38,333 bases of DNA from Monosiga brevicollis MX1. Its lineage: Eukaryota > Opisthokonta > Choanoflagellata > Craspedida > Salpingoecidae. The stretch spans positions 687,795-726,127 of the forward strand of contig NW_001865041.1 in NCBI RefSeq assembly GCF_000002865.3, given 5' to 3'. Made by a program: the position numbers and the translations under genes. Shown in pieces: positions 11,192-36,400 of this stretch (position 1 is its first letter; each line of letters begins with the position of its first letter). The notes under the pieces are model-generated. The model was not told where the DNA came from. It worked only from the letters and a program-made list of their open reading frames with translations, and searched no databases.

Positions 11192-11322
11192 GAGAGAGAN
11201 NNNNNNNNNNNNNNNNNNNNNNNNNNNNNNNNNNNNNNNNNNNNNNNNNNNNNNNNNNNNNNNNNNNNNNNNNNNNNNAGTTTGAGAGTTTGAGAGTTTG
11301 AGAGAGAGAGAGAGAGAGAGAG

Positions 11323-17057: not shown

Positions 17058-20024
17058 CCCTTAGTGTGAGGATGAACGCTTTGAGCTGGATTTGATTTTG
17101 GAGTGCAACCTTGCCACAATCCGTGTGCTGGAAATGGTCATGCATGAGTTGCAATTGCGCCCCGAGGATCAGCGCCGAACCTACTCGTTCAACATCAAGA
17201 ACCTTGGTGGACGCTCAGAGAGCATTCACCGCAAAGCCGTGTCCCGCATTTATGGCCCGCGAACAGACGACGTCTTGCAGGCTCTTCGCCGCGACCCCTA
17301 TGCACACATCCCCATCGTGCTGCAGCGCCTGAAGCAGAAGCAGCAAGAATGGCGCAAGGTGCAGCGTGCGTGGAACGAGTCGTGGCGTGATGTGATTGAG
17401 AAGAACTACCTCAAATCGCTTGACAATAAGTCTTCCACCTTCAAGCGCAATGATACCAGCGCCATCAAGGCCAAGATCATCCGCGCCAACTTCAAGGACA
17501 AGCGTGAACAAGCGCGCAAGGTAAGCAGGAAGAGACGCTTGCCAACTGTTTCAGCTCTGGAGGTTGCTTTCCATCAAGATGTTATTTCCTCGTCTTGAAT
17601 GGTACTGCATCCCCGAGACACCCACCAACTAATCTGATGGCTTGCCTGCATGATCTTGTCATTCCGCTGGGGCAGGCTCTCAAGGAACTCCGCAGTGGCG
17701 CAGACGTCGATCGGTCGCTGTACCTGCCCCGCGAGCTTCTGGACTTTTCTGAGGTATTGATCAAGTGACGCTTTGTTGCTGGTTGACAGCTTTTTCCTCT
17801 CTGCCTCAAAAACGCGCACTCGGTTGCAAAAGATTTGTTCCTTGCTTTCTTGCGTGCTTTCTTGCGGTTTTCTCACGGGTTTGATTTTTCAGGATGTGCG
17901 CAAGTATGTCAACCAAATTGTGTTGGCTGCCTACAACAAGGTGTCAAAGAGCGGCGAACAGACCCGTGATAACATTGCGGTGCGTTTGTAGCAGTATCAG
18001 CAACACCTGCTTGATGTGCGAGGGGGCGTTTGAGAAGACCAGTGAGCCAGTTGTTTCTGACACAGTCTTTGCTGTTCGTCCACCAATTAGGCCCTCTTGG
18101 ACGATTTTGTGGCGTCATATATCAGCGGCGAGTTCTCCGTGCCCTCGAAGCAAAACCGGGGCGAAGGCGCGTCGTCTGGCGAGCCCCGCAAGGGCGTCGA
18201 ATCAATCATGACGAAGGTAAGACCTCAGAGGCAAGCTTTCCGGCAAGCGTTGCATATGCACGTGGCAGCTCATTCCTTCTTTCGTTTCCACCTTGCCATG
18301 GTGGCAGGTCAAGTTTCGAGGTAGCACGCCTGCAAATGTCTTCTACTGCAGCAGTCGGTGGGCCGTGTTCTGGATGCAGTATAACGTGCGTTTCTAACGT
18401 TCTAGATTGGCCTGCCCTCCTGTTCAGACTTGGACGCTCAGGCCAACTCATTTCCCGTTTTGCATCTTCCAACTGTATCCAGATGCTGTGGACGCGCGTG
18501 GCTAACATTGTCAAGATTTGCCGCGAGTGCGAGCAGGCTTTGCGTGATGATCCAGAGGGGAAGCGGGCGCACGAGCGCCCTACTGCCGTCTTCTTGGCAC
18601 TGACCCTGCCCTGTAAGTTCACTGAGGCTTCAATCGCGTTGGGGCCGGGAAGAGGATGCGCGCCAAGCCAAGGTGCACTCGGTCGTGTGCTTGGAACTCA
18701 TGGTGGCACTGGTTGCAAACTACAGCCGAGTATGATCGCTCAGCACTACTGGACGTCTTTTTGGAGCTGACGACCAATGTGGTGGAGGGCAACAGCGACA
18801 TGCAGTCGTATGAGGACGCCATGCGTGATCTCTTTACCACAGCTTCCTATCAGCTGACTACTATTGACAAGCTGGCACACGCTTTGTACCGCCAGCTGGA
18901 GACGTTGATGGATCATCCCAGCTCAGCGCTCTCGGGTGCTTTCTTGCGTAATCTGGCTGGCGAGCGCTTCACGCTTGACGGCGAATCAGCCAATGAGTCC
19001 ACACAGACGGACTATTTGACCTATGTTGTGCACACCTTGGGCGACTCTAACAAGACGCTGTACAAGACGTACCATGCCGATGGCAAGATTTGCGTTGAAA
19101 TTATCGACCTTGAGCCAGGGCCTGATGGCACGACAACCACGGCCGGTGCCAATTGGCTCAACTACATCGAGAAATACATGGATTTCAGCCATTTAGACGA
19201 AGATCTCCTCCGTCAGTCTGTCCACAAGCCTTTTCTCAACCGGTTCGTTGCTTCTGTTCTCTTTGCTGCGTGCTCGTTGTTACTCCTGGGAATACCCTGC
19301 CAATGCCTCAGCGAATGCCTCACCGTTTACTGCTCTGATCCTACCTTCTTTAGAAACAAACGCAAGGCGGGCTACGAACAGCAAGCTAACTGGGAGGATC
19401 GCGTCGTTTTTGACAACAAGCTCGAGTGCCACTTCCGACTCAATGCTTACAAAATGTTTTTCGTCGTGCGAGTACGTGCACCTTCCCGGGTTGCATCTCG
19501 TCCTTGTCTAAACCCTCTGCATTCGATGTTTGGCGCCTCCTTCTCAACACCACACCTGTCCGTCTTTATCACTTGTCAGTCGGGCGATCTGCTCTTCCGG
19601 CACCGCGAAATCCCTCCCCAGTCTGAACGCCAGGCACCTCAATCACGGGTGCGCAAGCACAACAAGTTTCGGGGTTGGATTGGTTCGTGGCTTGAGAAAC
19701 ATACCACACAAGCGGAGCGTGAATCCTGCGACAACTTTTTGCGCGGCACCACCTCCAAGGTTGCGACGGAGAGCAGTAAGTGTTCTTACTTGTTCAAAGG
19801 TCACAATTTGGGCAGGCCATGATTCTGGCCTTAGCCTTGCACATTTAAACCCCTCATCGAATTCTTACTTTCCCGTGTCTGGCTGGGGCTGTCTTGCAGA
19901 GCATGTGAAGACGGATGTGCTCAACTATACAAAGTACACCACCAAGCGTCAGGGCCGTCAAGCCAACTTTCCAGGCACCTTCAGTGCAGCCAACACCGAA
20001 GACGCTTCTGCTCTACGCAAGTAG
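11964..20024 (+). CDS. SIN3: SIN3 transcriptional corepressor scaffold
   Basis: SIN3 is the nuclear scaffold that binds repressors through PAH domains and HDACs through the HDAC-interaction region. Twenty-two exons: 11964-12171, 12628-12659, 13055-14240, 14326-14500, 14630-14918, 15031-15152, 15249-15372, 15502-15729, 15833-15919, 16038-16289, 16388-16592, 16670-16875, 17065-17520, 17676-17753, 17893-17979, 18091-18216, 18308-18385, 18483-18612, 18726-19242, 19354-19471, 19580-19775, 19900-20024; about 1674 aa. Residues ~1-630 are Ser/Ala/Pro/Lys-rich and disordered. PAH1 (~631-715) contains [14 protein letters not shown] and IDTPGVI. PAH2 (~773-870) contains [12 protein letters not shown] and [13 protein letters not shown]3 is at ~897-965. 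The Sin3 corepressor domain follows, with [30 protein letters not shown] and YLKSLDNK. The C-terminal part keeps [10 protein letters not shown] and [12 protein letters not shown]. Intron 1 appears GC-AG (gcatgt). Exons 1-4 are the least certain. Confidence 0.93.
12928..12946 (+). repeat. Poly-T tract in SIN3 intron 2
   Basis: A run of 19 T about 110 bp upstream of the intron 2 acceptor. It is simple sequence with no other signal seen. Confidence 0.9.
17026..17057 (+). repeat. Poly-T tract at the SIN3 intron 12 acceptor
   Basis: A run of 32 T ends seven bases before the exon boundary (CCCTTAG at 17058-17064). It serves as an extreme polypyrimidine tract. Its length probably varies between strains. 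Confidence 0.9.
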
Positions 20025-20589: not shown

Positions 20590-23500
20590 TTAGAAGAGGC
20601 GGGCCAATTTCTTCTTTTGTTGCTGCCGCCAGAGAGGCAGTTTAACGAAATCGTCGCGGCTCATGTTGAAGACTTGTCGGAAATCTGACGGGCTCAGGTA
20701 TGATTCCTTTTGCGCCGGATCCACGCCACGTCGTCGTAATACCTCATGTGCTGTGCATCGCAGGTATTCGCACGCAAAGTAGGACTCCTCATTGGGTGCC
20801 TGATTAGTAGGCGCTTCGTCAGTGCATGATTCCACCTTGGGGCAGGTTTGAACGGCATCAGAAGCTTTTGGGGATGCACGTAAGGCTGTGACTGTGTGTG
20901 ACAGGGATGATCGTGGGGCAGTGGGAGGGACTGGCTCGATGCCTGCTGTTTCAGAGCATGTTTCAGAGCCAGCCTCTGAGTCTTGCTCTTGAACAGCAGG
21001 GTGTGATGGCTTGCGTGATGCTGACTCTTCCTGCCGTGGCAGCCAGGTGCCAGAGATGGCCTATACGATAGCAGATGGAGGTGAGGAATAGATGCGATGA
21101 GATGTCGAGGCATAAAGTGGCGAGATAGAAGCGTCATCTGATTTAAACTTACGCAATCATAGCTACCGCGGCCTTGCACGGTGGACAAGGACAATCGAGG
21201 TGACACCTCGAGCAGATCGATCGAGCCTTGAGGGCTGTCGTGTTCGTCGGTTGCAGCAATCGCTTCGAAACGTGACACTGTGGCTTTGAGCGTGTCAGCA
21301 ATGGCAGGCGCACGGGGCTTGGTGGGCACGGGTGGGGTTATCTTGGGTGCGCTGGGGCTGCGCTCGAAAACTCTCGCGACGGGCACAAGCACTTCAAATA
21401 CGCTCTCGCGTCCTGGCTTGCGTGGCACAACGGGGGGTGCAGCTGGATTTGGTTCAGATCGGGCATCTGATTGCAATGGCAGAGGCACGGGTGCTTTCTT
21501 GCGTGTTGTAACAGGGGAAGGCGAGGGGGATGCACGTGTTGTTGTTGTTGTTGTTGTTTTTGCTGTTGTCTGGGTAATCTCGGCTGACGTTGGCGCAGAT
21601 GGGGCCGGTGGGGCCGGCGGGGCAAGTGGAATCTCGGGAACTTCCTCATCGGCAATGGAGTTGCGACCCTTCTTGCTACGGCGACCAAACATGCGACGAA
21701 TTGAGCGGCGCGGCTCTTGGGTTGATCGGTCAGAGCTGGCCGGTGCATCAGTCTTATTCTCAAAGAGGCGGATCAGGTCCGTCAAGCGGCCTTTGGCATG
21801 GCCCGAGCCTGAAGATGCATCCTCACTAGCTGCAACAGGGTTGCGAGCTGACAAACTAGCAGAGGCGGTGTTCTCAGTGATGGTCGAAGTGTCCGGTTTT
21901 GGCGCACGGCGGCGCTTGCTCTTGCTTTCCGTATTGCGGTCATCGCTATTGGAGGACAAGCGCCGAAGGCTGCGCCGTATAAATCCTATCTTCTTCTTGG
22001 TGGGCGAAGCGAGGGCCTCAGCAATCTCGGCCGAATCGATGGACGGCTCGCGTACCAACGGCGGGGAAGATGGCAAAGGCTCGGCCGGGGAGGCTAGTGC
22101 TTGAGTCTTGGCGGGGTCATTCGTAAGCACAACGGACTGTTGCATTTGTTGCTGTTGTTGAAGATGTTCTCGGCGAGCTGCACGCTTCTGCTCAAGCTCT
22201 GCTTTAATGGCGGCCTCTCTTGCAGCACGCTCACTCTCCAACTGGGCCCGAACATGGGCTTCGCGCTCAGCCAGTGCTTGTTCAATCTTGCGAGAAATGT
22301 CGCCATGGGCCTGCTTTTTTGAACTGGCATCCCCAGTATCGAGCAACTTGACGCGTTCTGCCAATAGACCCTTGAGCTCACGCGCACGACCTGCGGCACC
22401 CTTGTTGGAATGCCCGTCCGATATTGGGCTGGCCGCACGGTCCCCACTGGGGCTCGGGACCCGAGGGGAGAGCCGCTCAGATGTTGTTGCAGTGTCGATC
22501 GCGCCTGGTGGTTGGGCAATGGGCTCGGCACTGTCCGTGGACGTCTCTCGTGGGGCCACGACCTGTTCCTCCGCATCATCGTCTTCGTCATCTAAGAGGA
22601 CTACGCGTGCGGTGCGGCGTTGCTGAGCCAAGCGCATTTGCTCAGGTGTAACTGGACTCTGCGCACGCGCCGCTGATTTAGGAACAGCGGCGTTGTCGAG
22701 TGGCCCACTCGTGGCCGGACAAGGGTCGACAACTTCTGGAATGCCATCTGGACAGTGCACGGTGCGCTTGGGCTTGTCATCAGGCCCCGATAGCGAGTCA
22801 CGGGGTCCATGACGGCCAGCTCGGTGAGCCATGTCTCGAAGGGTTTTCGCCGATGGTGTGGCGCTGTCAGCGTCATCCAACGGCAAGACGGCGAAGGATG
22901 NNNNNNNNNNNNNNNNNNNNNNNNNNNNNNNNNNNNNNNNNNNNNNNNNNGCATCGAGCTCCAGCTTTGAGTCGTCTTGCCCTGCACCTGCGTTGGCGAC
23001 GGACAGGGAGGGTAGGGCTTGGACCGGGGATGGTACTGAGGTTGCTTGCGAGGGTGACGGGGAAGCTTCAAAATAATCAGGCACGTTGGCATCAGCGCAC
23101 AACTTTGGGGATGCAGGGGCTGAGTTGGGACGAATGGCATCTGCTGCCGCAGGTCGACTGCTGCCACTTGCGGCTTCGTTGGGGGGTCCATCGAATAAAA
23201 GACCAGCGAGCGCATCATTATACAAACGGTCCGCGGCTTGCAAGTAGGAAAGCAGCTCATTAGTGACGTCAGTGCCAGTGCGACGGGCACGTTCTTGCGC
23301 CTTGCGGGTCAATACGGCGAGACGGGTTGTGCCCTGCTCATAGTACACCCGCTCGCGGCACTTGCTTCCTGGAGGCAGGTCTTTTTCAAAATGGTTCCAG
23401 CGACCTTCGAGCTGCCGCCGGCGCTCGTCATCCTCTTCTTCATCCCACGCTTCCATGGCCACGTCCATATCAAACCTGGGAACCAGCGGCAGCGGCACAC

Positions 23501-25880: not shown

Positions 25881-28800
25881 ATGTCGGTGGCTCAGCTCTT
25901 TGCCAATGCGCAGCGCAGCAAAACTCGTCAAGAGGCCTGTGCTGATGGCTTGCTGCGCTTGATGCTGGAACAACCAGCCGATGAGTTTGCAGCTGCATTC
26001 CGCAGCTGCTTTGAGCGCTGCCTCCTGATTTTCAAGCGCGAGCCCGCCGTCGAGCGCATCATTGAAATGGTTACCGTCTTTCTCAACAAGGCCTCTCAGG
26101 CGCGTCCATGGCCTTGCGGGTCCACGCCCCCCCCGCCCCCCCCCAATGCATCACACAAACACGGCTCGAGTCAACGCATACCCCTCATCCCACTGTATCC
26201 AGTCTTATGAGAGCACAGACAATCATCTGCAAATCCGCTTTCCTCTCATCTTTGGCGGCCTGCTTGTAGGTACCGGAGGGTGCCAGCATGGTCGACATGG
26301 TGCTGACGCGCATGACCGCGGTTGCAGCCGCACAGGATAAGAGTGTGCGCTTCAGGGCGTGTCAAGTCATTTCTCGTGTTTTGAACCGTCTCAGCGACGG
26401 TACTGATCTTAGCGAGGAGCTTTACGATGCCCTCGAGACTGTCGTATTGGATCGCATGCACGACAAGATTCCTGCTGTGCGTGTTCAGGCCGTAAAGGCA
26501 GCGGGGCGCTTGCAGGCGGTCGATGACGCAGACTGTCCCATTGTTCAGCGTTATCTTGCCCTTTTAAGCAAAGACTCAAGTGCCGGTATGCAGCTCCCAG
26601 CCATCCCCAATTATCGCCGCTTCAGGCGCCTTGAGCCCGCTTGCCTCTCCACTCAGGCCACTCTGCTCACTCATCCAGCTCACCAACTGTGCTATTTTTT
26701 TCTTTTCATTGTTTATTGACCTAGACGTGCGCTGTGCTGTCTTGCAGCAGCTCATCTTTACCAAAAACACCAAAACCGCCATTCTGGCTCGTTCCCGTGA
26801 TATCAAGACCCCCGTGCGAGTCGCATTCTTCAAGGTCAGTTGAAAATACCAGGCATCATCTGCAAACTCTATATACCGTCAACTGGGCCAATGACACCAT
26901 CTTTTACGCCTCATCTATACTTGCATTTCTTGTACGTATGTATTTTCCAATCTCCAGGCCATGTTGGATCAAGCAGTGCACTACAAGGCCATCAGCGTCG
27001 CTCAGCGCGTCGCGCTCTTGCGCGATGGTCTCCTCGAGCGTGAAGGTTTGTCTCCCATCGATCTGCCAGGCTATCGTGTGTACCTGTCTTTCTCACTGGT
27101 CATCTACCCATCTCTTTGCAGATGCCGTGCGTAAACAAGCCACCAAACTGGCCCTGAGTTGGTTTCGCTTGGCGGGTGGGCTCGATGCCCTACTGGACGC
27201 CATCGACGTCGAGCTCAACGTCGAGGTGGCCGAGGCCTTGTGCCAAGCCATTTTAAACTCTGGTTTGTTTTCACTTCCACTGGGCTTGTGCACACTGGGT
27301 CTTTTGCGTGCGATTTGCCCTTATTCATCATCTGGCCACAATCAGCTACATTAGCGAAACCCGTGCTCTCACACGTCGGCTGGCTGCTTGCTTTTGCAGA
27401 GGATGTTACCATGGAGGCTCTGAACTTGAGTGCCCTCAGTCCGTCTCGTACGTTCTTTTGGGTCCAGGCATGCAAATTTCTCCAGCAGCAAAAACGCCAG
27501 GAAGACCTTGAGGCCATCATGCCGTCAGCCTCAGCCCTCGGCGACCGAGTGGTTGCCTTGATTGATAGCCACGTACGATGCGGCCTTGGTTTTCCACCGG
27601 GTCTTGTGTGAACTGGCAATCATCCCTTTCGCGCTACCTCATGTCCGCAAAACTCATACTTCTTTTGACTGAATTCTGGCCTTTGTCTGGGATAGGCGGT
27701 GGCCCAGGAGATCAAGAACGAGCCAAGTGACGATGAGGAAGAAGTCATCAACAATGCTTTTGTTGTGCAACAACTTCTGCTGGGAGCGGAGCTGTTCGAT
27801 GCAGACAACGAGTTTGCTCGTCGCGAGCTGTCTGCCAAGTTGCGGTGTGTTGACGCAGACTCGACTCTGATGGGCTTTCTCTATGGCTCGAATTGTGCCA
27901 CGCGCCTTGACCGTTTTACACATACCTCCTCGGCACGCAAACTCACTTTTGCCGGCGTTGCCACGCTTTTGATCTCGGATGCACTTCGGCAGGCCGCTTG
28001 TGATCAAGCACTTCCGTGTCAGCGAGGTCATTGCGCCATGCATGAAGCTACTGGCCCACCTTCATCCTCACGCGACCGAGTTTACCACTGTTGTGGTGGA
28101 ACTTCTACGCGACATCCTCGAGCCGGTGACGGTACGTCTTGTGACTTTGCACCAAAGACTCGCCCGACATTCAGCGGTGCCAACAAGCTCGCAAACGACA
28201 GCTCTGCTCTCATGTTTGTGGCGTGGTATCTCATCAATTTACCTAATACACTTGCTGGCTTCATCTGGGGCTGCCCAAAACTCGTTATAGTACGTGACCA
28301 AGTCAATCTCAGAGAGCGAAAAGAAGCGCCTCCAAGTCAAGATTGCTGAACGTCGCGTCAAAATTCTTCATGTAGGCTTTTGCGATGCTCGTTTTTGTTT
28401 CTCTTGATGAGTGCATCACTTGATGTTGGTCGGCATGTTCTTCGTTGGTCACTTTAGCTCGAGGATGACAAGGAGGCTCGGGTTGAAGCGGAGGAGTTTG
28501 TCGAGGCTGAGAATATCAAAAAGCGTATCGAGGCGCTGCGGGCGGAGCAGGATGACCTTCGCGCTCAAATGGAGCCGCGGGTGGTTGAGAAGCGCCACCA
28601 GCTTGACGACAACGAGACATTGCAAGCACGCCTGCAGATCCTTCACACCGCCCTGGTTGCCAGCAAGGAGCCACTGCAAACGCGTCACGAAGACGGTGTG
28701 GTGGACACGATCGTTTTGCCAGGAGTGCAGCACCCCGACGCTGAAGTGCGCAACCTTGCCATTGCCTGCCTGGGCCTCCTGTCTCTGTGCGACAAGGTCT

Positions 28801-31028
28801 TTGCACAGAAGCACATTTTGCTCCTCCTGCAAGTTATCCAAGTTGATCAGGATGTGCTGCAAGTCACGGCTCTCCGCCACATCTTTGACCTTCTCCTGGT
28901 GTTTGGAGTCGAGGCATTTGCGACTGGGAACCAGGTGTGGCGTCACGACCTCTTGATCAATGCTAACAGTTAGTCTTGTCACGCCTGATCAGGCCTTGAT
29001 TTCTCACGCCTCTGGGTACAAATCCAACTCAAATAGATATCAGAGAGCGCAGACAGTGAGCAAGAACGCGCCATGGAGCGCGATACAACCATCGTGCCTA
29101 TCCTTGAACGGTTCGTTACAGCCAAGCTTCCTTTGGAGGCTCGTATATTTGCAATGGCCTTGGCTGGTTGTGGTTGGCCATGTCTTCTTTCTGTCCACTG
29201 ATGTCGCTCGATGATGGGTCTTCCAGATATTTGGAAAGCGATAACGATGACCTCAAGACCGTTGCAGTCCAAGGCTTTGCAAAGCTGCTGCTCAGCAACC
29301 GTTTGTCCAGTGTGCAGGTACGTTTGGTGCTGTTATTGGCTTTGAGTGGTTGCGTGCAAGCTCGTTGCGGTTCCTGCATGGTCTCAACCTGACGTGGTTC
29401 CACAGATTGTCTCTCGCCTGACGCTGCTGTACTTCAACCCAACCACGGAGGATCTGACCGATTTGCGGCAATGCCTATCCGTATTTTTTCCGGCCTATGC
29501 CTTCTCAAGCCGGGCACACCAGGTACCAAAGGCCAATTCTCAGCGACTTGTCTATTTTTTGCTCATCAATGAGCTTCAGCTGACGTTTTGTGTTTCAATT
29601 ACAGGATGACATCCGCGAGAGCATGCTTCCCACCCTTCGCATCGTCTTCCGAGCTCCCGCTGACAGTCCCATGGCCTCTGTCAAGCCCAGCACCGTGGCT
29701 GATATGCTTATGTACCTGACGCAGGTATGGGACGATCCATGTGGTTTTTGATTTATAATCATCATTAATCTCGCATGCCGGGCGTGCAATTGTTACTCGT
29801 TCTATCAACCTCTCTCACTCTTTTGCTCTCAATGTCCCTCTTGGCAGGCTGAGCGAGCGGGCTTGGGGGTGCATGGTGACTTGGCGGTGGCTCTAGCCAA
29901 CGAGGTCATTTCTGAGCCAGAGAGTCCAGACAACAAAGTGTTGCTTAAGGTATCGCTATGCGTGCTGAAAAGAACTGCTTGTAACTGTGGTTTGTTGACT
30001 GCATTTATGCTCACGAATGCGACATGTGCCCACCACCTATCGCCTTGGCATATTCATGTCCTGGCTGTCAAGGCTTTGAGCCTTGTGTCTTGGACCTCAC
30101 TCGAAGAGGAACAACTCCGATGCATGGTGGTCTTGATGGAGCAAGTGGACGAGCTCATGCTCGACAGCGCCGCCAACAAGCTGGCCAGCAAGGTTTGATA
30201 AACTTGTATAAACCCGAGACGAGTATATCTTCATCGAATGGTTAGCTAGCGTCGAAGGCTCATGCCGCGCTATTTCTTTATTCGGGTCGTGAACCATGTA
30301 GATTGTGGACGCTGTTCAAGCTGCATTGGGCACAGAGGGCCTAGATGGTGAGTCTTCATCCACACGTTCATGTGCCCTTACCTACATATTGGTTGCCAAT
30401 GGATGGCGGTTTGTACACGCCTTCCCCACTTGGCATTAACCACGCAAACGGACACATAGGCATTGACGAGGGATTGCGGGAGGCCATGCAAGCCCAGGCT
30501 CGGGAACATCAGGAGGCTCGTCAGCAAGAAACTCAGGCATTGGCAGCCGAATCCTCCACCCGCGCGCGTCGTAGCAGCCGGCAGCGTAAGGCAGCACAAC
30601 AGCCCATCTCCTATGATGATGAGTCAGAGCCGGACGCCGAGTCAGAGGACGACGAGGTGAGAAGATGTCACCGTGTTTGGGAACCATGTCCAAATGCATT
30701 CGGTCGATTCCACACTTTTGCACGTCATTGCTGACTTGCCACTGGGCATTGCTTGGTTGTATCCATACCAGATCTTGAGTTCTCGACAGGCATCGGGGAA
30801 AACCGAGTATCTGGTGCGCCAAGCGGGAGATCCCGAAGAGTAAGTGTCCCCGGCTGAGCTGGCAGGCGAAGTTCCACCATAGAAGCGTCTGCCATCCATG
30901 TTGAATTCTCGTTTTCATTTATTATCGTTCGCTTATCACACAGATTGGCTGAGTGGATGCCAGCCAGCGCTGTCAATTCGGCCCTGGTCGAAGCTTTTGC
31001 CATGGACAAAGAAAACAGTGTGTATTAA
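25881..31028 (+). CDS. NCAPG: Condensin I HEAT-repeat subunit NCAPG/CAP-G with chromo-like C-terminus
   Basis: CAP-G is the non-SMC HEAT subunit that binds the kleisin and DNA in condensin and compacts mitotic chromosomes. Twenty exons: 25881-26099, 26270-26585, 26725-26834, 26958-27045, 27122-27262, 27400-27572, 27696-27844, 27993-28131, 28291-28371, 28458-28934, 29037-29110, 29227-29317, 29406-29522, 29605-29724, 29848-29949, 30073-30192, 30302-30347, 30460-30656, 30772-30839, 30944-31028; 970 aa (human 1015). Landmarks: FKREPAVERIIE, HDKIPAVRVQAV, AISVAQRVALLRDGL, LPGVQHPDAEVRNLAI, QKHILLLLQVIQ and LRQCLSVFFPAYAF. Exons 19-20 (residues ~917-966) read like a chromodomain (KTEYLVR, PEE, EW.P, ALVEAF), which human CAP-G lacks. 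Intron 1 appears GC-AG (gcgcgt). The stop at 31026-31028 may be bypassed by a donor at 31018. Confidence 0.93.
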
Positions 31029-31837
<809 letters not shown>

Positions 31838-33476: not shown

Positions 33477-36400
33477 ATGCCCTGGTCTTCGGGGGCCAAA
33501 CCTCCGAAAAAGGTGAGAGACAACGTTGGGTCGTGAGACAGCGTACAAGGGAGGTGTTCAAAGTCTAGTTTGGCTGCCTCATGGGATCCGCAGCCCAGCC
33601 CTGGCAGTGTCGTATTGGGTGTCATGAATCCGTCTTACACCGTTTTGGCCGTGTCTTTGTCAGGCGGAGGCTGTCAAGGCATTTGCCTTCAAGGTACCGT
33701 GCCAACACTCCCATGAACATGTCCACTTCACTGTCTATCCGCCCCGTACCCTTGCTTCCTCTCTGAATTTTCTCTCGATGCGTGGCCTCAATCTTGCCAT
33801 TCCATGATACCAGGCACGCAACCCCTTTGAAGAGAAGAAGCGGGCCGAAGAAGCTCGTCGCAAGGTGAGGAGTGCATCGTGTCAATCCCTTCAAGCCACT
33901 ACTTGTGAAGATGTGTGCATCTTGACCCTTGCATGCCATGATGACTCCTTGTTAGCGAGACCAAGAAGAGGCTGCGGCTTGCTTTGCAGATTTTTTCGCT
34001 GAATTCGCAGATGATGAGCCCAAGAAGGGGTTTGTGCGCGGTGGTGTCGTTAATGATGGTGAGTCAAGACGCTAGGGTCCTGGCTTCTTGCGCCTTGGAT
34101 CTAGGTTGAACTCGTGCTGACTTTTCTTGACCCAACCCAACCCCTCAATCATGTGCTCGTTAGATGGCCGCAGCGCCCAATCAAGTGCTTCAGAGCAGCT
34201 GCTGGCTCGGTCAGCAAAGTCCAGCCGTCCATCCAACTTGACAGATATTTTTGGTGAAGACATCGAGGAAGAGAACAAGCCCAAGCGCAAAAAGCCAAAG
34301 TCCAACATGGAAATTTTTCGCGAAAAGCTAAAGCGGTATGTAGACGTAGTGACGGTGCTTTGGCGCGGGGGAGACGGCAACAGCGGCGGTGCATGGTTGT
34401 GAGCATCGTGTGAATGGCAGATAATTGCCTGCATCTAGCTTCACGTGTGACTCTTTGACATTGTCTGGCGGGCGCGTGGCGTTTCTTGGTACAGCGAGCA
34501 GGAACGACGCGAGGCGCGGAACGAGGCGCGGCGCGATGATGGAAATGTTGATCTTCGTGCCAGCGATTCCCTGGCGCGATCACTCGATGCCACGACACCC
34601 ACTGAGTCCGAAACCACGAATTTGTACGTGAACAACCTGCCCACAACTTTCAAGGAGGACCTGCTGGCTCAGCTCTTTGGCGTACATGGGCCGTTGGCCA
34701 GCGTCAAAATCATGTGGCCGCGTCACCCCTCCGAGGTGCGCGACAACCTCTGTGGCTTTGTCGCCTTTATGCGCCGGGCTGATGCACAACGAGCCCTGGA
34801 AAAACTGAACGGCGCCCTCGTCGAGGGGCACGATATCAAGACCGGTTGGGCCAAGGCCGTCCCCATCCCTCCCAAACCCTACTATATCCAGCCCGAGGCC
34901 GTCAAGGAGGATTATGGCTTGCCCTTCAACGCACAGCCCCTAAAGCCGCCTCCGTCTGGTCGCATCGACGAAGAAGAGCGTGCCTATCACACTCGGCATT
35001 CGGTAGTCCGAGTAAGCTTGCACATGCCTTTGCCCTTCAGCTTACCAGTCGTCGTGCCGAGGGTAGCAGCAGGGGTTGCTTGGAGCTAAATCTGGCCTGG
35101 CTCCACTCTCTATTCCTCATCCGGTCTTACCCTAGGTGCAAACGCCAGCGGACCCCGCTGTTCGCCAGCTCATTCACCGTGTGATTGAATACGTCATCAA
35201 CCATGGCCCTCACTTTGAAACGCTGCTCATCCAAAGCATTGAACGCGATCCACAGGTGCGGCATTCAAGTGATGACGGCCAGTGTGTTGTGGGAAAACCC
35301 AGGGCTTTGGGGATTTGCGTACGCTGCAAGACCTTACTTACGGCGTGCTGGTTCCCAAACCCTCCATGACAAGCAGTTGGCCTTTTTGACCGCGTTTAAG
35401 TCGCCCAATCACGTCTATTATCGCTGGAAGCTCTTCTCTCTCCTGCAGGTCTGTTTTTTCTCTTCGCGCAATCGGTCAGCTGTAGCCACGGTCCAAGCCT
35501 GATTTTTTTTTTCTTTGTCCCTGCTTACCTTTTCTTCTCCTTGAATGTTGTGTATGCGGTCAGGGCGAGGACCCCGACTCCTGGAAAGAGACCAAGTTTC
35601 GCATGTATGAGGACGGCCCGTGGTGGATACCGCCGGGCATGGACAAGACTGGCACATCCTCACGCAGTCATCTGACACCCAGGTCTGCTAATGCTTGCCC
35701 TCACTCACTCTGGCTTGGTCGCATGGGCGGGCAAGTGTGGTCGTATTCCATCGAGTGCGTCGCTCGGTGCTCTGACTTGGTATGCCAACGCATGAACTAT
35801 TGTATGATTGTCGTGATGCTGTAGTGAAAGAGATGAGCTTGAGAATCGCCTGCAAAACATGACGACGGAACGCCGGGACATTGGCGACACCATGTGGTTC
35901 TGCATGATGCACTCCGAGGCCTTCCAGGAGGTACGAGGGTCTTGAGGCGCTTTGCTTCCGCTGCGCGCACCCACGCAGCTTTTGTGTCTATCGCTGCCAA
36001 GCTTTTTGGCTCTTTTCTCCTCCCGAGTCAGCATCAGAACCTCATTTGGCCTTTTTCGTCACCGTGCAGATTGTGGATGCGATCGAAGAATCCTTGACAA
36101 TGCTCGAAACACCCATCTCGCTCAAGGTGGCGCGCCTATTTCTCATCTCCGACATTCTTCACAATAGCACTGCCAAGGTGAAGAAGGCCGGTTTTTTCCG
36201 CCTGCAGCTACAAAGCAAGCTTGAGAACATCTTTTATCACCTGCACCTGGCCTACCGTGCCATCACAGGCCGCCTTCGCGCCGAGCAATTTCGGGTATGC
36301 AACCATCCATCATCCGTGGCTTTCGGACTAGCGTGATGACGGCCGACTCTTTGGTTGTTTGTCCAGCTGCGCGTCATGCTGCATTGGGGGCACAGATATT

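Follow-up and report, generated by a model that had tools for sequence, protein, structure and literature searches.

It is not settled how condensin finds its way to chromatin, and the answers proposed include linear motifs bound by CAP-G and adaptor proteins acting in trans. A locus of Monosiga brevicollis MX1, lying in a window of 38,333 nucleotides (the whole stretch of DNA that was analyzed, contig NW_001865041.1, to which all positions refer), raises the question of whether a CAP-G chain may itself end in a chromodomain-like module, as an earlier note on this DNA had claimed. If true, such a module, being part of CAP-G itself, would offer condensin a third route to chromatin, and a chromodomain would have been reused after the loss of its mark-reading pocket.

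The gene occupied positions 25881-31028 of the plus strand. Its model, assembled manually on the basis of homology and splice sites, comprised 20 exons encoding 970 amino acids from the first ATG to the stop (CDS of 2,913 bases including the stop codon). Introns were GT-AG in 18 of the 19 cases; for intron 1 (26100-26269) a GC donor was modelled (CAG/GCGCGT), no fitting GT donor being seen by eye. The full-length protein displayed HEAT repeats and the Cnd3 C-terminal domain in Pfam (PF12719, E = 2.8e-74), and it aligned with five distinct condensin subunit 3 sequences in PDB, the best of them being the solved CAP-G 6igx (E = 2.7e-106). Judged from its predicted product, this is clearly the gene of condensin subunit CAP-G (NCAPG, condensin subunit 3), and the identity proposed earlier was borne out. 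The HEAT body and the Cnd3 domain are common to Monosiga CAP-G and to CAP-G, Ycg1, and Cnd3 elsewhere. In the alignment with 6igx (numbers matched by hand), S121-E122-E123 and D126 of the motif SEELYD (residues 121-126, positions 26411-26428) aligned with the acidic patch D136/D137/D141 of human NCAPG, so the linear-motif-binding patch seems to be kept. No relatives were found for the CAP-G core in the prokaryotic and viral contig collections, nor for the tail in the viral one, results which say little because these collections are prokaryotic or viral. In the own genome (39.47 Mb, 57 contigs) a second copy of the tail was not found, all three matches corresponding to exons of the CAP-G gene itself.

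The end of the protein is encoded by exons 18-20. Exon 18 contained a basic segment, RARRSSRQRK (residues 889-898, positions 30561-30590 of the plus strand; residues 885-900 comprise six basic residues and one acidic), and finished with the acidic linker SYDDESEPDAESEDDE (residues 905-920, 30609-30656), whose end sits where the first chromodomain strand belongs. After intron 18 (30657-30771, GTGAGA...TACCAG, 115 bp, phase 0), exon 19 (30772-30839) encoded ILSSRQASGKTEYLVRQAGDPE and ended two bases into the following codon; after intron 19 (30840-30943, GTAAGT...ACACAG, 104 bp, phase 2), exon 20 (30944-31028) supplied the end of this Glu codon, LAEWMPASAVNSALVEAFAMDKENSVY, and the stop. The spliced reading runs from ...DAESEDDE through ILSSRQASGKTEYLVRQAGDPE to ELAEWMPASAVNSALVEAFAMDKENSVY and the stop, exons 19 and 20 together encoding the 50-residue tail ILSSRQASGKTEYLVRQAGDPEELAEWMPASAVNSALVEAFAMDKENSVY after the acidic linker. 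According to translation, Pfam, and alignments, the first part of the chromo-like module falls in exon 19, and its W-x-P and C-terminal helix region in exon 20.

The chromodomain motifs claimed for this tail were present and in order. It keeps IL, R, G, EYLV, G, W-x-P, L-V, and F, positions which we take to be those of the chromodomain core, in the order and spacing of PF00385 chromodomains (CBX7, HP1/CBX5, and LHP1 in PDB). Scores against the Pfam family Chromo (PF00385) were 13.6 bits (E = 0.064), 13.4 bits (E = 0.073), and 15.1 bits (E = 0.022) for tail queries of 87, 50, and 55 amino acids, respectively, and the match covered profile positions 4-50 of 53, the core residue pattern thus being found over most of the profile. 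The profile search suggested in the earlier note gave a divided outcome: Chromo was the first family listed each time, and the sole one for the trimmed 55-residue query, whereas all three scores lay under the curated cut-off of 25.1 bits and the chromoshadow profile PF01393 was absent. With the full 970-residue protein Chromo was not listed at E ≤ 10, and for the 87-residue query a phage tail family scored nearly the same (E = 0.072 beside 0.064), which limits the worth of such E-values.

Chromodomain proteins made up 29 of the 32 PDB matches of the tail in a first search (best CBX5, E = 0.029) and 30 of 36 in a second (best CBX7, E = 0.032; cpSRP43 is counted among the 30), with 4quc taken by us to be a chromodomain protein; since they are related to one another, these matches are not independent votes. 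The remaining ones were chains of glucose-6-phosphate isomerase and Mrc1 in the first search, and of isomerase, D_3_633 (presumably a designed protein), and Dmd in the second. Condensin chains did not appear among the 32 matches, and the human 6igx chain, of just 839 residues, may lack its tail. Within the own genome, the tail aligned ungapped up to the final Phe with two chromodomains (loci L001 and L002), and four others matched it poorly. Each of these two ungapped scores was reached by 2 of 60,000 shuffles and by none of 2,309 six-frame windows of 50 amino acids (fitted P per window of 3.2e-4 and 5.8e-5). Taken together, the top rank of Chromo in Pfam, the predominance of chromodomain proteins in PDB, and the shuffles supported the resemblance claimed earlier, though at a borderline level. 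An E-value of 0.022 over 24,736 Pfam models amounts to about 1e-6 for one family named beforehand, a figure that needs caution because the choice of family was left open to the earlier reader. For a pre-named family the match is significant, and once all families are corrected for it is borderline; the tail appears more chromodomain-like than chance, with evidence that is borderline and short of conclusive. The order and spacing of the core residues are observed, and the fold is what we infer; crude secondary-structure propensities gave one strand and the helix, and a predicted chromodomain fold is moderately favored.

On balance, we regard it as an even call that the CAP-G C-terminus (residues about 921-961, exons 19-20) would be a degenerate chromodomain by descent, in which the sheet and the C-terminal helix were probably kept and the cage and the hydrophobic N-terminal strand lost. 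The alternative that survives best, and which has an appreciable probability, is a chance resemblance, in which the C-terminus would be disordered in the usual manner of CAP-G, as in human, and 50 of its residues would happen to echo the chromodomain consensus, any action being exerted via short linear motifs (the basic segment, the acidic serine-rich stretch). Such an explanation has to face the value of about 1e-6 for one named family, the ungapped alignment with two own-genome chromodomains as far as the final Phe, and the coincidence of the kept positions with those of the chromodomain core. It fits well with best E-values of just 0.02-0.07 and a genome-wide reader who weighs many families. 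It also fits with the behavior of other condensins, in which linear motifs bind HAWK subunits: those of NCAPH, NCAPD2, and KIF4A bind human NCAPG (PMC11790958), and in Ycg1 a conserved pocket accommodates CR1 motifs (PMC11791182). In the excerpted text of the former article the C-terminus of human CAP-G is described as disordered, in contrast with the chromo-like tail of Monosiga, and its deletion did not significantly change the ATPase activity (PMC11790958), so by analogy an ATPase role is not expected for the tail.

An improbable alternative is that exons 19-20 are normally outside the protein, either through retention of intron 18, by which CAP-G would end 25 residues past the acidic linker, at a stop codon in 30732-30734, or through another splice form. 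The codon score of these exons was among the lower ones of the gene (0.24 bits per codon vs. 0.51 ± 0.15 for the remaining CDS, 2.3% of gene-body windows scoring below them) and an in-frame alternative acceptor at 30790 could remove ILSSRQ, both of which speak for exclusion. In contrast, the score was far above that of introns and flanks (-0.44 ± 0.20), only 0.3% of whose windows reached it, and the junctions 30656/30772 and 30839/30944 turned out as the earlier note had placed them, both introns being GT-AG with fitting phases. By these measures, exons 19-20 look coding.

Chromodomains hold methyl-lysine in a cage of three aromatic positions, Tyr, Trp, and Phe. In the alignment with HP1-alpha, these positions corresponded in the tail to S916, Q937, and D940, none of them aromatic. 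The Gln after EYLVR and the Asp after the next Gly were therefore confirmed at cage positions, and the N-terminal one, absent from the earlier note, is a Ser inside the acidic run that replaces the histone-gripping first strand; the view that methyl-lysine is not read canonically was strengthened, three cage positions being lost rather than two. The 50-residue tail contained four basic and eight acidic residues, and residues 901-920 none and ten, respectively. Compared with PF00385 chromodomains, the tail presents 15.1 bits for a cut-off of 25.1, Ser/Gln/Asp in the cage, and no hydrophobic first strand, and its module ends a HEAT-repeat condensin subunit.

Shadow domains are likewise without an aromatic cage, and a chromoshadow-like dimerization module or a nucleic-acid-binding one had also been suggested for the tail. 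Either is highly improbable: the charge counts disfavor DNA or RNA binding, the W-x-P of chromodomains is retained, and searches with the tail did not list PF01393 at E ≤ 10, which leaves a chromoshadow domain unsupported, although very weak matches can be lost to the filters of HMMER. A six-frame search for chromoshadow domains in the own genome was empty and detected no positive control either, so it does not show their absence. Weakest of all is a working methyl-lysine reader inside condensin that would target marked nucleosomes, to which the chromodomain resemblance and the acidic run ahead of the domain, a feature shared with the HP1-alpha chain that topped the first PDB search, lend something, and which as a canonical reader is predicted to be very unlikely because all three cage positions are lost and the histone-gripping strand is now an acidic run. 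The chromatin-reading arm envisaged in the earlier note thereby stays a conjecture.

If the tail is a degenerate chromodomain, it may grip another protein instead, since the pocket that reads methyl marks is lost. Among acidic chromodomains that lack a methyl-lysine cage, cpSRP43 would be the nearest, albeit partial, precedent. Its CD2 and CD3 are described as methyl-lysine-independent, with acidic residues in place of cage aromatics and an electronegative surface, and the modified cages, with Glu and Asp, hold arginine-rich tails that are taken up as an added strand (PMC4660199). The parallel is only partial because cpSRP43 keeps the cage Trp, which is Gln in the CAP-G tail; of the cpSRP43-type features the acidic cage replacement is present and the cage Trp absent. 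Moreover, cpSRP43 is a chloroplast protein, and the peptide ligand of the CAP-G module is a proposal. If the module is folded, docking of a basic peptide in the manner of the cpSRP43 chromodomains is the most likely function that we infer, tentative though it is and rather unlikely overall. A tethered docking module would accept a basic peptide as an additional strand, independently of methyl-lysine; the candidate ligand could lie 22 residues upstream in the same chain, namely the RARRSSRQRK segment, giving an intramolecular switch, or alternatively the basic tail of a partner or of a histone. The tail would then constitute a second ligand-binding surface, in addition to the HEAT repeats with which this HAWK subunit binds linear motifs. 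More doubtful still is the complete scenario, in which a chromodomain was fused to CAP-G in one condensin I lineage and turned into a methyl-independent basic-peptide clamp, acting as a docking arm or as an intramolecular switch in competition with the known linear-motif ligands.

A fusion between CAP-G or condensin and a chromodomain was not found in titles or abstract openings among the matches listed from the open-licence literature. A Monosiga CAP-G sequence is included in a supplementary alignment of PMC5651216, and the excerpted text of that article mentions no such domain. Coupling of condensin with a chromodomain is shared with Drosophila condensin II, where Cap-H2 is coupled to the chromodomain protein Mrg15 via the MRG domain (PMC4426367); Mrg15 has also been named as a condensin adaptor in trans (PMC5784890). 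There, however, the coupling occurs in trans and through a different subunit, whereas the CAP-G tail lies within the chain. If real, the module would be a case of a familiar domain that has decayed and occupies a new location.

Concerning its origin, a shared intron position was considered as independent support and was rejected by eye over the own-genome loci: the CAP-G intron lies within the codon of Glu943, before Leu944, and the match of the CHD-like locus L005 ends after TWELSS and that of L012 after DDIQ, neither end coinciding with the CAP-G position. The tail may derive from the repeated retroelement-like chromodomains of the genome, L002 giving the best pairwise score (54), but its margin over L001 (49) is small and the tail has introns. 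The L001 locus (1501-1659) carried, within a single open frame, a clear chromodomain (Pfam E = 3.3e-13); the next best matches to it in the genome were the repeated copies of retroelement-like type (48% identity, E = 5.8e-10), and it might be a domesticated copy.

As regards the surroundings of CAP-G in the window, pieces of a Sin3 co-repressor were found upstream on the plus strand (17065-19822; Sin3_corepress E = 2.2e-6, Sin3a_C E = 7e-34). Runs of N occurred at 11200-11278 and 22901-22950, the second within a long minus-strand reading frame. About 510 bases past the CAP-G stop there is a long CA dinucleotide repeat (31538-31749; 160 + 44 bases), and a reading frame at 34451-35089 displayed an RRM (E = 2.3e-12) and by eye resembles what we take to be the splicing factor U2SURP.
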